The translations under genes were made by a program, and so were the position numbers. From assembly GCA_004297075.1 (NCBI GenBank), contig SCVK01000396.1, positions 62,001-126,000 of the forward strand: a stretch of DNA of 64,000 nt, given 5' to 3'. The notes below the pieces were generated by a model. The model saw nothing but the letters and a program-made list of their open reading frames with translations. It did no database searches and was not told the DNA's origin. Below, in pieces: positions 54,807-60,428 of the stretch (position 1 is the first letter of the stretch; the number at the start of each line of letters is the position of its first letter). This DNA comes from Chitinophagaceae bacterium. GTDB lineage: Bacteria; Bacteroidota; Bacteroidia; Chitinophagales; Chitinophagaceae.

Positions 54807-55963
54807 AAGAATATACACTTACTGAAAAACAAAACCAGTCGCGAAAATTCTGGACTTTTCTGCCGGTGCTGGTTGTGACGTTCTTAACCGTAATATTTTG
54901 GTTGATGGGTGGTGGATCTGGCGGCGCTGCGGGTGTTGTAAAAAAAAGCGGACTGAACACGCAGTTACCGAACGGGCGTGGTGCAAAGGATTCAGCAAAA
55001 GATAAACTTGCCTTTTATGTAGCGGCAGATGCGGATTCAGTTAAGCGACAGGAACAAATGCGGAATGATCCGTATATGCAACAATCTGTTAGAAGTCTGC
55101 AACAGGTTACACCTTCCTCGCAGACAGATGCAGAAGAGCAAAAAATTTATGCACGGATAGCCAGCATACAAAAGCAGGTAAATCGTTCAAGCAATGTGCC
55201 AGTTTCTCGATCAGAGGAAGGAGCGAATTTAAGTTTAGTGCCAAAGAATGAACCTGCACAGCTGCAAGGCGATCCTGAAATTGCTGCATTGAATGGGACA
55301 CTGGAAAAAATTCTTGACATACAGCATCCTGAGCGGATAAAATCAAGAACTGAAGAAAAGAAGACTACTGTGTTTATGGTGAGCAGAGAGCCGGGAAATA
55401 CGGACGATAGTTTTTTCGGGGCGAACGATACAGCGAACGGCCACGAATTGTTTTACAATGAAAAAGCACAGGCAAAAGATGTAAATGCCAATGCGATTCC
55501 GGCCGTCGTTCACGGCACACAGATGGTTCAAACCGGCGCACTCGTCAAATTCCGGTTGTTGTCAAGTATGTATGTAGCAGGTTTACAAATTCCTTCCGGC
55601 AGTTTCGTGTATGGGATTGCCTCGCTGAATAATGAACAACTGACTATTCATATTTCTTCTATCGGATATGGGAACAATGCATTCCCTGTTTCGCTTACCG
55701 TGTATAGCATGGATGGCTTGCCCGGTATTTATGCGCCCGGTTCTATTACAAGAGAAGTAGCAAAACAATCTACCGATCAGGGCTTGCAATCAATCGGCAT
55801 CCTCAACATGGAACCATCTTTAAAAGCACAGGCGACAGCAGCCGGTATCGGTGCAGCAAAAAGTCTTTTGAGTAAAAAAGCAAAGCAGGTATCTGTTACG
55901 ATCAAGGCGGGATATAGGGTCTTGCTAAAAGATGATAACCAGCAAAACGCTAACCATGAATAA
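54803..55963 (+). CDS. traM: Conjugative transposon protein TraM
   Basis: QSRKFWTFLPVLVVTFLTVIFWLMGGG...GLNTQLPNGRGAKDSAKDKLAFYVAADAD...KFRLLSSMYVAGLQIPSGSFVYG. Confidence 0.92.
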   Translation: MKEYTLTEKQNQSRKFWTFLPVLVVTFLTVIFWLMGGGSGGAAGVVKKSGLNTQLPNGRGAKDSAKDKLAFYVAADADSVKRQEQMRNDPYMQQSVRSLQQVTPSSQTDAEEQKIYARIASIQKQVNRSSNVPVSRSEEGANLSLVPKNEPAQLQGDPEIAALNGTLEKILDIQHPERIKSRTEEKKTTVFMVSREPGNTDDSFFGANDTANGHELFYNEKAQAKDVNANAIPAVVHGTQMVQTGALVKFRLLSSMYVAGLQIPSGSFVYGIASLNNEQLTIHISSIGYGNNAFPVSLTVYSMDGLPGIYAPGSITREVAKQSTDQGLQSIGILNMEPSLKAQATAAGIGAAKSLLSKKAKQVSVTIKAGYRVLLKDDNQQNANHE

Positions 55964-56735
55964 GCTCCTTGTTGTCATATTCCTGATTTTGCACTGGTCA
56001 TTGGCTGCGCAAACTTATATAGAACCTACAAGGCTGGAAGTTGGCATAAATAAAACGACCAACCTGGTTTTTCCTGCCGGTATCGTATCGGTTGACCGTG
56101 GCAATCAAAATATTGTTGTTCAAAAATCTGCTGCCAATATTTTGCGGGTAAAAGCACAGGTGGCTTTTTCAGAAGAAACCAATTTAACGGTCGTTACCAG
56201 TGACGGCAAACTCTATTCTTTTATCATCAACTATCATCCAGATCCTGCTCACCTGAATATTAATATGAGTCATTCACTTACCGTGAAAGGTGATAGTGCA
56301 ATGCTTGTTTTATGCAGCCGTGTGCTTTCTTCTCCAGCCGGGTTGTACCGGCTTCGTTATGTGAACGCGAATATGTACCTGACTGTTGCTGGATTTTACA
56401 TTTATAAACAGTTCATGTTTTGCCGTTTACGGATTGAAAATCGTTCGCAGATCGCTTATGATATTGAGCAGTTCCGTTTGTATATACGTGACAGTAAATT
56501 ATCCAAACGAACTTCTTCACAGGAAACAGAAATCAAACCTATGTATATCTCCGGTGATACCGCTGCTATTGCCGGAAAGTCCGGTCAGACAATTGTAGTG
56601 GCAGTGCCAAAATTTACTATTCCTGATGGAAAACATTTAGCTATTGAAATAATGGAACGAAACGGTGGCCGGAATCTGGCTATTAAGGCCAGGAACAGGC
56701 ATGTAGTAAAAGCAGTGTTAATCAGTACAAAATAA
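55956..56735 (+). CDS. traN: Conjugative transposon protein TraN (DUF4138)
   Basis: EPTRLEVGINKTTNLVFPAGIVSVDRGNQNIVVQKSAANILRVKAQ. Confidence 0.9.
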   Translation: MNKLLVVIFLILHWSLAAQTYIEPTRLEVGINKTTNLVFPAGIVSVDRGNQNIVVQKSAANILRVKAQVAFSEETNLTVVTSDGKLYSFIINYHPDPAHLNINMSHSLTVKGDSAMLVLCSRVLSSPAGLYRLRYVNANMYLTVAGFYIYKQFMFCRLRIENRSQIAYDIEQFRLYIRDSKLSKRTSSQETEIKPMYISGDTAAIAGKSGQTIVVAVPKFTIPDGKHLAIEIMERNGGRNLAIKARNRHVVKAVLISTK

Positions 56736-56742
56736 TAACGGT

Positions 56743-58557
56743 ATGAAAATATTATCTGAAGACGTGTTTGATTTTAGTGAGCAGTTGCACCAGGCTGCGC
56801 GTAACGATATGAATTGGTTTGCTTATGATACCAGCTTAGAATCTGTAACAGCGAGGGAAATTGATGTTTTTGCTTCAGAAAAAGAAGCCAATGAGTTTAA
56901 ATCAGAAAAGGAAAATTTTGGAGAAATCTTTCAGGTGTTACCTATTGATGCTGTATCTAGAAATGTCGATGAGATGATCATTATTGAATTACATGAAAAT
57001 GATCAGTACCCTGATATCTATATCGATGTGTCTGAGGTATTGGATATTCAAGACCGACTCAATTTTAATCAGACCGCAGAAGGCTTAGAAGAACTGATGC
57101 AAAGTTTTGATTGGTCTCATACATTTTATGACCCACTCTATGCCAATACGGAAACTGAATCAGATGAGGACAAAGCGGAACACAACCGGCTTGAATCTTT
57201 GATTGAACAGATGAAAGAAATCCATGGGTCGGGGTCCAAAGAGAAGGAATTGGTTGAGCTTCTTGCGGATCGATATTGGCGAGATCAGCCAATGGAAGCG
57301 CAGATATTATCACTTTTTGGCGCAGAGCCGAACATTCGAAATATGATCAAAGCCTCTGAACATCCTATTTCAAAAGAAGTATTAGATACCGCCGAGACTG
57401 CGCTCCTCAATGGTAATAACTGGATGGCGTATAACACACATTCGTATTTGCTGGAATTATCCGATGTGCATTTTTTTTCTACTAATGACGAAGCGAATCA
57501 GTATGCCCGTGATAATATCAGTGATCAGGATGGTTTTCGAGTGATTCATTTTAATTCTGTGCAGGATATACTTAAAGAAATCCCTTACGGTCAAATGGTT
57601 CTTGGGCCGGAGCCATCCATGCGGATAGATCCCGACAGCAATCCACTCATTAATAAAGACGGCAATGCGTTCACTGATGCATTGATAGACCATATTGAAG
57701 TGCAACAAAATCTCAACAATAAAAATCATGTTATGAACGAAAACAATTTGAATTACCTAAAAGACAATGTTAAGTTCTCTGGCTTTGGAGAATCCCTGTA
57801 TGGTGAACTGGAAAAGAACCTGAAAGAACAAAAAGCCGAGTTCCAGTTGCATTTCACAACACAGATCAACAATCGTCCATTTAATGCAACACTTCAATTC
57901 GGAAGGTCTGAGAATTCCGATATGTATTTTTTTAATAGTTACAAGGCATCCATCGAAAAAAAGAACGGCGAGAAAGTAGAGCAATCTTTCCGGTTGTATA
58001 AGGGCAAGGGTGTGAAAGCAAAGGAAGCTTATAACCTCCTGCAAGGTAGGGCTGTGTTTAAAGAATTGACTAACAAAGACGACCAACCCTATAAAGCCTG
58101 GTTACAACTTGACTTTGAAAATAAAGACAAGTATGATAATCATGCTGTGAAACAGTACCATGAGAAATACGGCTATGATCTTAAAGAAGCGGTCGCTAAG
58201 TTTCCTGTGCTGGATCTGGATGGGGGCAAAAAGGAAGAAGACCTATTAAAATCTCTGGAAAAAGGCAATACCCAATCTGTGACAATGGAGATCAATGGGA
58301 ACCCTGAAAAAATGTTTCTCGAAGCTAACCCGCAATACAAGACCATCAATGTCTACAACAGCGAGTTGAAATTAATGAAACATGAAGAACTGCCGTTGGC
58401 GCAGGGTAAGAGCAAGGAACAATCAGTATCCCAGGAAATGGGGAAGGATAACAAACCAGAAGTGAAGCAAGGGCAAAAACCGGTTGCCTCTCAAAAAGCG
58501 AATGATAGTTTGTTGCCTAAGAAAAGAACAGGCAAGAAAAACAAAATAAAAATGTAG
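56743..58557 (+). CDS. Conserved mobile-element accessory protein (DUF3945-like region)
   Basis: YLKDNVKFSGFGESLYGELEKNLKEQKAEFQLHFTTQINNRPFNATLQF...KAKEAYNLLQGRAVFKEL; 604 aa. Confidence 0.6.
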   Translation: MKILSEDVFDFSEQLHQAARNDMNWFAYDTSLESVTAREIDVFASEKEANEFKSEKENFGEIFQVLPIDAVSRNVDEMIIIELHENDQYPDIYIDVSEVLDIQDRLNFNQTAEGLEELMQSFDWSHTFYDPLYANTETESDEDKAEHNRLESLIEQMKEIHGSGSKEKELVELLADRYWRDQPMEAQILSLFGAEPNIRNMIKASEHPISKEVLDTAETALLNGNNWMAYNTHSYLLELSDVHFFSTNDEANQYARDNISDQDGFRVIHFNSVQDILKEIPYGQMVLGPEPSMRIDPDSNPLINKDGNAFTDALIDHIEVQQNLNNKNHVMNENNLNYLKDNVKFSGFGESLYGELEKNLKEQKAEFQLHFTTQINNRPFNATLQFGRSENSDMYFFNSYKASIEKKNGEKVEQSFRLYKGKGVKAKEAYNLLQGRAVFKELTNKDDQPYKAWLQLDFENKDKYDNHAVKQYHEKYGYDLKEAVAKFPVLDLDGGKKEEDLLKSLEKGNTQSVTMEINGNPEKMFLEANPQYKTINVYNSELKLMKHEELPLAQGKSKEQSVSQEMGKDNKPEVKQGQKPVASQKANDSLLPKKRTGKKNKIKM

Positions 58558-58561
58558 AGAC

Positions 58562-59290
58562 ATGAATACAAAAAATATAACGCTCCTTGCGGGAATGCTC
58601 ACCCGGACAGGGTTTGATCCAGGTATTGGTTACCGTTTGTTACAGCAGGTTTGCTTCCGGCCTGCAGCTTTTTCCCTGACTGAAAAAATACAGAAGGGGG
58701 ATGATGTGTTAGCCTGCACCTTGTTTTTTGAAAATAGGAACAATGAATACAATTGTGTTTACTATGATGCAGCAATCAGTAAGCAAGCTGCCATGCCTGA
58801 ACTAACTGTCAACGGAATTAACCTGCATGAACTGGATATAGCGATGCAAAATATCAATTGGAATGCACAGAAAGCGGCAGAAGAATTTCGGTTGGACGAT
58901 GAATCGACCTGGGTAAGAGAAAAAAATATCGCACAGATCGTAACAGAGCTGACAAGACTTTCGGTGACAGAGGACGGTAAGGCGTTTTCAGATGCATTAA
59001 AAGTCAAATATTGGATAGGGGTAGGACTGGAAGCATTTGTCGGAAACTTATCTGCCATTCAAAACAGGCTGGAAGTAAGCCAGCGGTTTTATTTTTTAGA
59101 TGGTGAAGCGATTGGTGTAAATGAAGCGTATCGTTTTTTGTTGAATAAGTGGATGGAGAAGAAGATGTTAGCCAAGAAAAAAACTGATAGCCAGGAAACA
59201 GGTAGTATTAACTCTTCTGCGAGTGAAGGCAAAGAAATTAAGTTGTTGAAGAAAAAAAGAATAGGCAGGACACGTAGATCAATCGGGTAA
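58562..59290 (+). CDS. Hypothetical conjugative-element protein
   Basis: Intact ORF in operon, overlaps next gene by 1 nt. Confidence 0.5.
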   Translation: MNTKNITLLAGMLTRTGFDPGIGYRLLQQVCFRPAAFSLTEKIQKGDDVLACTLFFENRNNEYNCVYYDAAISKQAAMPELTVNGINLHELDIAMQNINWNAQKAAEEFRLDDESTWVREKNIAQIVTELTRLSVTEDGKAFSDALKVKYWIGVGLEAFVGNLSAIQNRLEVSQRFYFLDGEAIGVNEAYRFLLNKWMEKKMLAKKKTDSQETGSINSSASEGKEIKLLKKKRIGRTRRSIG

Positions 59291-59577
59291 TGGAGTGCTG
59301 TAAACCGCTGGCAGATTTTTATGAAGCTATTGAAGATGATGCCAGAATTGGATCAAACCATATCAGTGTATATATGGCATTGTTGCATAAATCTGTTACC
59401 GATTCAGAAAGCAATTCCTTTTTGACCTACCGATCTGAGATTATTGGCAGAGCACGGATAAGCAGACGGACGTATAATAAGTGTATGCGGGAACTGCAGG
59501 AATTTGGGTACATCAGGTATGAACCGTCTTCCGATCCTGCACGGGCAAGTAAAGTGTATCTGAATAAATTAGTGTGA
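59290..59577 (+). CDS. Small winged-helix-like DNA-binding protein
   Basis: HISVYMALLHKSV...RARISRRTYNKCMRELQEFGYIRYEPSSDPARASKVYL. Confidence 0.55.
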   Translation: MECCKPLADFYEAIEDDARIGSNHISVYMALLHKSVTDSESNSFLTYRSEIIGRARISRRTYNKCMRELQEFGYIRYEPSSDPARASKVYLNKLV

Positions 59578-59597
59578 AGAGATAAATGTGAGATTGT

Positions 59598-59909
59598 ATG
59601 GAAGAAATGCCCATTTTATTTCCTGTTACTCCAAAGGAGTTTTGGAAACAGCTTAGATCAATTGTGGAGGAAGTTGTGGAAGCGAAAATGAATGCCGGTC
59701 ACTCGATACCCGCTGAACTATCTGAAAAGACACTTCTAAAACCACTTGAAGTCTGTGACATTTTTCGTGTATCTAAAGCCACCTTATATGAATGGATGAG
59801 ACAAGGGCGACTCAAAAGTTTTAAGATTCGTTCTCGCAGGTATTTTGCCAGAACGGATATTGAAGCTATTATCAAAAGACAACAGCGCTATGCGGCACCG
59901 ACAGTATAG
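59598..59909 (+). CDS. Excisionase-type helix-turn-helix protein
   Basis: LLKPLEVCDIFRVSKATLYEWMRQGRLKSFKIRSRRYFARTDIEAII. Confidence 0.85.
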   Translation: MEEMPILFPVTPKEFWKQLRSIVEEVVEAKMNAGHSIPAELSEKTLLKPLEVCDIFRVSKATLYEWMRQGRLKSFKIRSRRYFARTDIEAIIKRQQRYAAPTV

Positions 59910-60054
59910 ATTAGATAATAAATAGCCTCGCCCGTCAGTTTTGATGGGCTTTTCTTTATAAAAAGCCCGAAAAATGTGGTCAAATTCCTTCAATCTTTTC
60001 GAAATTTTCAGCCCTTTTTTTTGATAATCTTTACCCCATACTTTCCCCCCAAAT

Positions 60055-60094
60055 AAAAAACGCCTTGTAAATTGTTGATTTACAGGGCGTTTTA
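60055..60094 (-). terminator. Rho-independent terminator of the minus-strand RNA gene
   Basis: Minus-strand hairpin AACGCCCTGTAAA-TCAACAA-TTTACAAGGCGTT then TTTTATTT. Confidence 0.65.
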
Positions 60095-60105
60095 AAAATA
60101 GAATG

Positions 60106-60278
60106 CTGTAGGGGGAGGGATCGAACCTCCACGAGGCAGTTAGCTGTAGTACAAAGTTCGGTGGTCGACCCCGGTCATCTGACTATTGCTAATCAAATGG
60201 CTCTATGCTACGTTTATCCTGTTATCCTCACCCCCGAGACAAGAGGGCATGTCTGCCAAAAATTTCATCACCCCACAG
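60106..60278 (-). ncRNA. tRNA-like structured RNA (~172 nt) with large insertion at variable-loop position
   Basis: Minus strand: acceptor TGTGGGG / CCCTACA; D-arm TGATGAAATTTTTGGCAGACATG; anticodon-like hairpin CCCTC-TTGTCTC-GGGGG; perfect T-arm GGAGG-TTCGATC-CCTCC; ~100 nt between anticodon-like and T arms; terminator downstream. Confidence 0.6.
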
Positions 60279-60428
60279 TATATAAGAACCCGTCGCTGTT
60301 ACATTGACAAGACAATATTACGGTAAAATCTCTATTCATTGTAAATAATTCAATAAATATTTTGATAATATAGAAAACATTTAATAAATTTGATATTGTA
60401 TTGAATAATTACAAAAATATAAATCAAT

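Follow-up and report, generated by a model that had tools for sequence, protein, structure and literature searches.

A conserved tRNA-like RNA with a giant variable arm in Bacteroidota, probably a carrier in asparagine synthesis

What is the role of a gene that is shaped like a tRNA, displays a GUC anticodon-like loop and carries an enormous arm in the variable-loop position? The question is raised by the minus strand of the window, the 64,000-nt stretch of a Chitinophagaceae genome analysed here (genome G000, contig C137; other G and L numbers denote sampled genomes and loci). An acceptor helix, a Leu-like D arm, an anticodon-like hairpin, a T arm and a downstream terminator had been described in the initial annotation, and all five are present in the minus-strand sequence (Table 1). 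The insertion of about 100 nt noted there likewise proved real; it is the variable arm, about 97 nt long and with covarying stems.

Table 1. Features of the RNA gene and its surroundings, in window coordinates
Feature	Position	Strand	Remarks
tRNA-like RNA gene	60105-60278	-	174 nt; position -1 (C) to C74; U1 = 60277, G73 = 60106
Acceptor helix, 5' strand (C-1, U1 G2 U3 ...)	60271-60278	-	partner 60106-60113; covarying helix 1
D arm, Leu-like, 3-bp stem AUG/CAU, G18G19-type loop	60249-60268	-	covarying helix 2 (AU:UA:GC types)
Anticodon-like arm CCCUC-UUGUCUC-GGGGG	60231-60247	-	covarying helix 3; G34U35C36 = 60238-60240; C38 = 60236
Giant variable arm, ~97 nt	~60133-60229	-	helices 4-5 covary class-wide, helices 6-8 within the genus
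T arm GGAGG-UUCGAUC-CCUCC	60114-60130	-	covarying helix; loop UUCGANY conserved
Intrinsic terminator AAAACGCCCUGUAAAU..AUUUACAAGGCGUUUUUU	about 60054-60094	-	read from the sequence; hairpin also aligned in the Rfam E ≤ 10 search of the locus
Possible promoter -7 element TAATATTG	60313-60320	-	~35 nt upstream of the RNA; by-eye likeness to Bacteroidota TAnnTTTG in relatives
A/T-rich inverted repeat AAATATTTATTGAATTATTT	60343-60362	-	between the RNA and asnC; read from the sequence; similar repeats in loci L046, L119, L099 and L102
AsnC-like (Lrp/AsnC family) regulator gene, 157 aa	60429-60902	+	divergent from the RNA; Pfam AsnC_trans_reg + HTH_AsnC
22-bp attachment core TTCGATCCCTCCCCCTACAGCA	60104-60125	-	3' end of the RNA gene; exact copies at C137 17201-17222 and 17397-17418
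Element end	55932-59909	+	traN, two undescribed ORFs, small ORF, excisionase-like gene
traN	55932-56735	+	Pfam DUF4138, NCBIfam TIGR03780 TraN
HTH_17 excisionase-like gene	59598-59909	+	Pfam HTH_17

Architecture and distribution of the RNA family

ARAGORN called no tRNA at the locus, and Rfam returned nothing there at gathering score and just irrelevant matches at E ≤ 10; nine further loci holding homologues went equally unrecognised by Rfam. No match to the locus was observed in phages and plasmids, and a literature search, for which subscription papers were mostly out of reach, gave no published account of such an RNA. Single-sequence folding of the window RNA was not decisive (z -1.4), so the case for its structure rests on covariation. 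A covariance model (R1) of the shared core was built from ten sequences, as the initial annotation had proposed alongside the ARAGORN and Rfam checks, and the window RNA scores 122.4 bits in it.

A plain DNA search found full-length homologues in most of 36 other genomes of the same genus, and several genomes from other families of the order also matched, some of them partially; such a spread goes far beyond chance. With model R1, 290 genomes spread over the class were scanned, and more than 40 of them, from more than 20 families, contain the RNA. Family members scored 79-148 bits, compared to at most about 63 bits for ordinary tRNAs of 73-92 nt; exceptions to this separation were one 109-nt member (66.8 bits) and a few copies that are truncated or weak. 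Named genomes were also scanned with a pattern, and the matches listed include Chitinophaga, Niabella, Terrimonas, Sediminibacterium, Pedobacter, Arcticibacter, Algoriphagus, Cyclobacterium, Belliella, Fulvivirga, Marinoscillum and Saprospiraceae. The RNA also occurs in a few metagenome-assembled genomes labelled Ignavibacteria (L148, L250), which either lie outside the class or are mis-binned, and a pattern match in a Myxococcales metagenome-assembled genome (L153), which had no model match, was attributed to chance. The whole RNA measures 109 to about 200 nt, and nearly all of this variation lies in the variable arm. Tandem copies are common, often two to three, and number five in Phaeodactylibacter xiamenensis (L222:311-1053). 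One copy in a 98%-complete genome (L035:1511-1628) measures 118 nt in all, about 58 nt of its variable arm being absent, possibly through a natural deletion or an assembly error.

The predicted pairs hold throughout the family. In the MAFFT seed alignment, which was not fitted to the model, 100% of 280 paired cells were standard pairs, and among 44 distinct members, whose alignment was fitted to it, 99.4% of 1231 paired cells were standard, with two-sided changes in 16 of 28 pairs. Sliding the partners as a control gave 44-61% pairing over both alignments and 52-60% for the 44 members. Within the genus, the upper stem and apical hairpins of the variable arm covary as well (54 pairs, 97.9% standard, 17 pairs with two-sided changes). 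Lack of homologues or of compensatory changes, an Rfam match and a pseudogene, named at the outset as grounds for dismissing the RNA, were each looked at and none applied. This is thus a conserved RNA family outside Rfam with a structure supported by covariation, in line with the proposal of a non-canonical tRNA or tRNA mimic.

The acceptor of the window RNA comprises 8 bp, CUGUGGGG with CCCUACAG. Its outermost pair (C or U versus G) is better read as position -1 opposite G73, because position -1 is C, U or A while U1 is invariant. The variable arm opens with a basal stem of GAGG/CCUC plus CAG/CUG, followed by an internal loop GGAUAAA/CUAAC, a long stem and two apical hairpins; the internal loop is well conserved in most members and is a candidate for a protein or tertiary contact. 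The leader between the candidate promoter and the RNA would be removed by RNase P.

A conjugative element of about 105 kb (C137, about 17200-122104; in the window up to position 60104) has integrated at the 3' end of the RNA gene, which is its attachment site. The far copies of the attachment core are adjoined by a tyrosine integrase gene (L004, 17815-19140), and past the leftmost copy the sequence looks, by eye, like that which normally follows the RNA in G021. The RNA gene stays whole after integration, as ordinary tRNA genes do. At the left element end (L004:17201-17605), tandem units of 166 nt, 96% alike and spaced 196 nt, each contain the 3' end of the RNA and look like remnants of earlier integrations. 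A search of viral contigs for the 22-bp core gave no exact match.

Conserved bases, GatB and the AsnC-like neighbour

The aspartate identity set of bacterial tRNAs comprises G73, G10, G34, U35, C36 and C38, while G1-C72 and G2-C71 are strictly conserved in bacterial tRNA-Asp (PMC9976931). Bacterial GatCAB recognises U1-A72, as described in a study of Bdellovibrio (PMC4206432). All 59 model-found members of the RNA family contain U1-A72, G2-C71, G73 and C74. The identity bases of the anticodon loop are nearly as constant (U35 in 58, C36 in 58, C38 in 57 and G34 in 55 members), and the further determinant G10 occurs in just 12. U33 is present in just 49 members, and position 37 is U in 48, C in six, G in five and A in none. 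By the published determinants, then, most of the bases read by AspRS have been kept, G1-C72 has been swapped for the pair read by GatCAB and the bases needed at the ribosome have not been kept. The earlier remark that GUC followed by U37 fits no normal tRNA-Asp was thus both correct and informative. The absence of an encoded CCA, remarked upon as well, is a fact but not an unusual one, because the ordinary tRNA-Asp genes of these genomes often lack it too.

Those ordinary tRNA-Asp genes display G1-C72, U33 and A37 in the carrier organisms, and a tRNA-Asp anticodon pattern was found in 12 of 12 genomes examined. The genomes checked have an ordinary tRNA-Asp of their own, which makes the RNA an extra. 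On a Saprospiraceae record that carries the RNA, in a copy cut off at the contig end, the tRNA-Asn (L253:2151-2225) has G1-C72 and therefore lacks the GatCAB pair; no tRNA-Asn was found in the roughly one half of the closed genome G017 that was read. The AspRS of the window's genome has Phe, and those of three other carriers have Leu, at the site aligned to the His in the RRDHGG motif of the Pseudomonas enzyme. We take this His to be a marker position separating discriminating from non-discriminating enzymes, a weak marker with which Phe and Leu here would be consistent with a discriminating AspRS.

GatCAB, with its presence judged from GatB, tracks the RNA. Typing covered 80 genomes, of which 42 have the RNA and 38 do not; its absence in the latter was rechecked using looser filters. 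GatB was present in 42/42 carriers compared to 17/38 genomes without the RNA, AsnRS in 79/80 of all typed genomes, and GlnRS in 26/42 and 22/38, respectively. GatCAB has no other evident task in genomes that possess both GlnRS and AsnRS, and among these GatB occurred in 26/26 with the RNA and in 1/22 without it (Fisher p about 1e-12, a value that ignores kinship and is overstated because the genomes are phylogenetically related). The contrast repeats inside three families (f1, f23 and f59). GatB was present in all 32 genomes without GlnRS, as Gln-tRNA synthesis requires. In a second batch all RNA carriers had GatB save one 70%-complete assembly, and two nearly complete genomes of the same genus (G019 and G025) have GatB with no RNA detected.

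The single exception among the 22, G071, has its GatB fused to a complete AspRS. Such fusions of about 1106-1110 aa were observed in G071 (L259:1804-5124) and G112 (L269:194-3526), and contain GatB_N, GatB_Yqey, an OB fold, a class II core and GAD, with a gatA-like ORF adjoining. No copy of the RNA was found in the fusion family (f33), and besides the fusion G071 encodes GlnRS and a free-standing AspRS. The fusion is possibly a second, protein-based route to tRNA-dependent Asn synthesis.

True AsnB (PRK09431) was found in 0/42 genomes with the RNA compared to 12/38 without it, and AsnA in 2/42 (G055 and G227) compared to 4/38. Most RNA carriers contain AsnB-like paralogues of about 600-650 aa, which could make asparagine, a point against a role of the RNA in its synthesis. 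The cleanest case is the closed genome G017, in which the RNA, GatB, AsnRS and GlnRS are present and no AsnA or AsnB-like protein scored above the cut-off. Many RNA-free genomes also lack a recognised AsnA or AsnB, so that absence of an asparagine synthetase is not specific to carriers. One of them, G131, a complete genome of the same family, has AsnRS and no RNA, GatB, AsnA or AsnB-like protein above the cut-off, and is predicted to be an asparagine auxotroph.

The regulator gene divergent from the RNA gave AsnC (PRK11179) as its best NCBIfam match with 150 bits, the next best being 67 bits. As this lies below the equivalog cut-off of 227 bits, the protein is termed AsnC-like and is not a certified AsnC. 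A divergent AsnC-like gene was found about 0.42-0.74 kb upstream of the RNA in 38 of 53 loci across the class, and is the sole widely recurrent neighbour of the RNA in distant genomes. The inverted repeat between the two genes is a candidate AsnC operator. In six AsnA/AsnB loci of RNA-free genomes no AsnC-like gene was found within about 1.5 kb, and a search of the RNA neighbourhood gave no Asn-releasing enzyme.

A proposed carrier and the competing explanations

The RNA family, its conserved bases, the GatB linkage, the exclusion of AsnB and the AsnC-like neighbour converge on one likely reading, namely that the RNA takes no part in decoding and is dedicated to carrying the amino acid in tRNA-dependent asparagine synthesis. 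The transcript would be matured by RNase P and CCA addition and charged with aspartate by the ordinary AspRS, since it carries G34, U35, C36, C38 and G73. The loss of G1-C72 should weaken this charging, which counts against the proposal, as do the scarcity of G10, the two carriers with AsnA and the two same-genus genomes with GatB but no RNA detected; the release of Asn, the scarcity of G10 and the AsnB-like paralogues are its weakest points. GatCAB would convert Asp to Asn on the RNA because it has U1-A72 where tRNA-Asp has G1-C72, while access of the misacylated RNA to the ribosome would be prevented by the odd anticodon loop, a possible 8 + 5-bp acceptor/T stack and the giant variable arm. 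Asn would be freed by hydrolysis or a further enzyme and then used by AsnRS, and the AsnC-like regulator may switch the RNA on under asparagine scarcity. We also favour, with somewhat less confidence, the wider idea of a class of non-decoding tRNAs acting as dedicated carriers in free amino-acid synthesis, in which a discriminating AspRS would charge, GatCAB would remodel, the giant arm would exclude the ribosome and an AsnC-type protein would exert control, making the RNA in effect a coenzyme in place of asparagine synthetase across a large share of the Bacteroidota.

The same identity bases, GatB linkage and missing decoding features would also suit an aminoacyl donor, from which Asp or Asn is passed by a non-ribosomal transferase to a peptide, lipid or cell-wall precursor; a specialised tRNA-Gly serves non-ribosomal transfer in staphylococci. 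We consider this unlikely, given that no transferase family recurs beside the RNA in the 53 loci and that the exclusion of AsnB points to Asn supply. A regulatory mimic, which would bind AspRS, GatCAB or AsnC and report the Asp/Asn status without metabolic flux, might explain the adjoining AsnC-like gene, and AspRS identity bases might serve binding alone. However, the invariant U1-A72, G73, acceptor, T loop and C74 look selected for charging and amidation, the tandem arrays of up to five copies are more fitting for a bulk substrate than for a sensor, and in genomes with GlnRS and AsnRS, GatB occurs with the RNA alone, bar the one fusion, making such a mimic quite unlikely. It is very unlikely that GatCAB and a non-discriminating AspRS act on the ordinary tRNA-Asn, with the RNA as a passenger or unrelated. 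This pathway has been demonstrated in Bdellovibrio and suggested for Bacteroidetes genera (PMC4206432), but it leaves the tracking of GatB with the RNA and the invariant Asp and GatCAB bases unexplained, and the one tRNA-Asn observed on a record with the RNA shows G1-C72 instead of U1-A72.

The conserved GUC anticodon could be taken as the sign of a ribosome-tolerated isoacceptor for Asp codons or for a recoding signal. This is highly improbable, as neither U33 nor a purine at position 37 is conserved, the variable arm is enormous and differs greatly in length among members, the genomes also have a normal tRNA-Asp and, if the RNA were amidated, Asn would enter at Asp codons. Finally, the intron-bearing or disrupted tRNA that the initial annotation had also considered, with the conjugative element as the agent of disruption here, is scarcely credible even though the RNA lies at the attachment site of the element. 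The same architecture is found in homologues across the class, closed genomes included, most genomes of the same genus hold a single intact copy, and the supposed insert matches no intron family and is a conserved arm of widely differing length closed by covarying stems.

Why bacteria, Bacteroidetes genera included, keep GatCAB despite having AsnRS and GlnRS, and without asparagine synthetases, has been stated as an open question (PMC4206432), to which the carrier proposal gives a testable answer. If it is true, asparagine auxotrophy may be wrongly predicted for many environmental Bacteroidota, a new RNA family that escapes tRNA finders exists in well-known genera such as Pedobacter and Chitinophaga, and tRNA-dependent chemistry has been split from translation via a specialised non-decoding tRNA.

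Comparison with known systems

Several known RNAs were considered as possible assignments. The RNA shares G34, U35, C36, C38, G73 and G2-C71 with tRNA-Asp(GUC), and differs from it by U1-A72, the lack of a conserved U33 and of A37, and a class II body whose variable arm measures about 36-125 nt; a functional canonical tRNA-Asp was rejected, as recognition by ARAGORN or Rfam, G10 with G1-C72, and U33 with a purine at position 37 all failed. A possible 8-bp acceptor with a 5-bp T stem and a long variable arm are shared with tRNA-Sec, which was rejected on account of the GUC instead of a UCA loop, the D stem of 3 bp instead of 6 bp and a first pair that is not strictly conserved. A tmRNA was rejected because no Rfam or ARAGORN match to one was obtained and an anticodon-type hairpin is present instead. 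An intron-containing tRNA was set aside as well, with no family match and the variable arm present in all homologues, shortened in one copy. The D-arm layout (GAAAUUGGCAGAC type) and the T arm are those of class II tRNA-Leu, and ordinary tRNA-Leu-like tRNAs are the next-best model matches after the family itself. Unlike tRNA-Leu, the RNA has a variable arm several times longer, G73 in place of A73 and a GUC loop. Class II tRNA-Leu is its probable structural ancestor.

In E. coli, AsnC is paired with asnA. The arrangement here is similar in that an AsnC-type regulator lies beside a gene proposed to supply asparagine, but its target would be an RNA rather than asparagine synthetase A. A close parallel is tRNA-dependent Asn synthesis by a non-discriminating AspRS, GatCAB and tRNA-Asn in Deinococcus, Thermus, Staphylococcus and Bdellovibrio, with which the RNA-carrying genomes share GatCAB despite AsnRS (and often GlnRS), the lack of a true AsnB, the rarity of AsnA and U1-A72 on the carrier. 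They differ in that here an RNA of Asp identity, distinct from tRNA-Asn and not used in decoding, seems to be the carrier. A discriminating AspRS would then be enough, and mischarging of tRNA-Asn would not be required.
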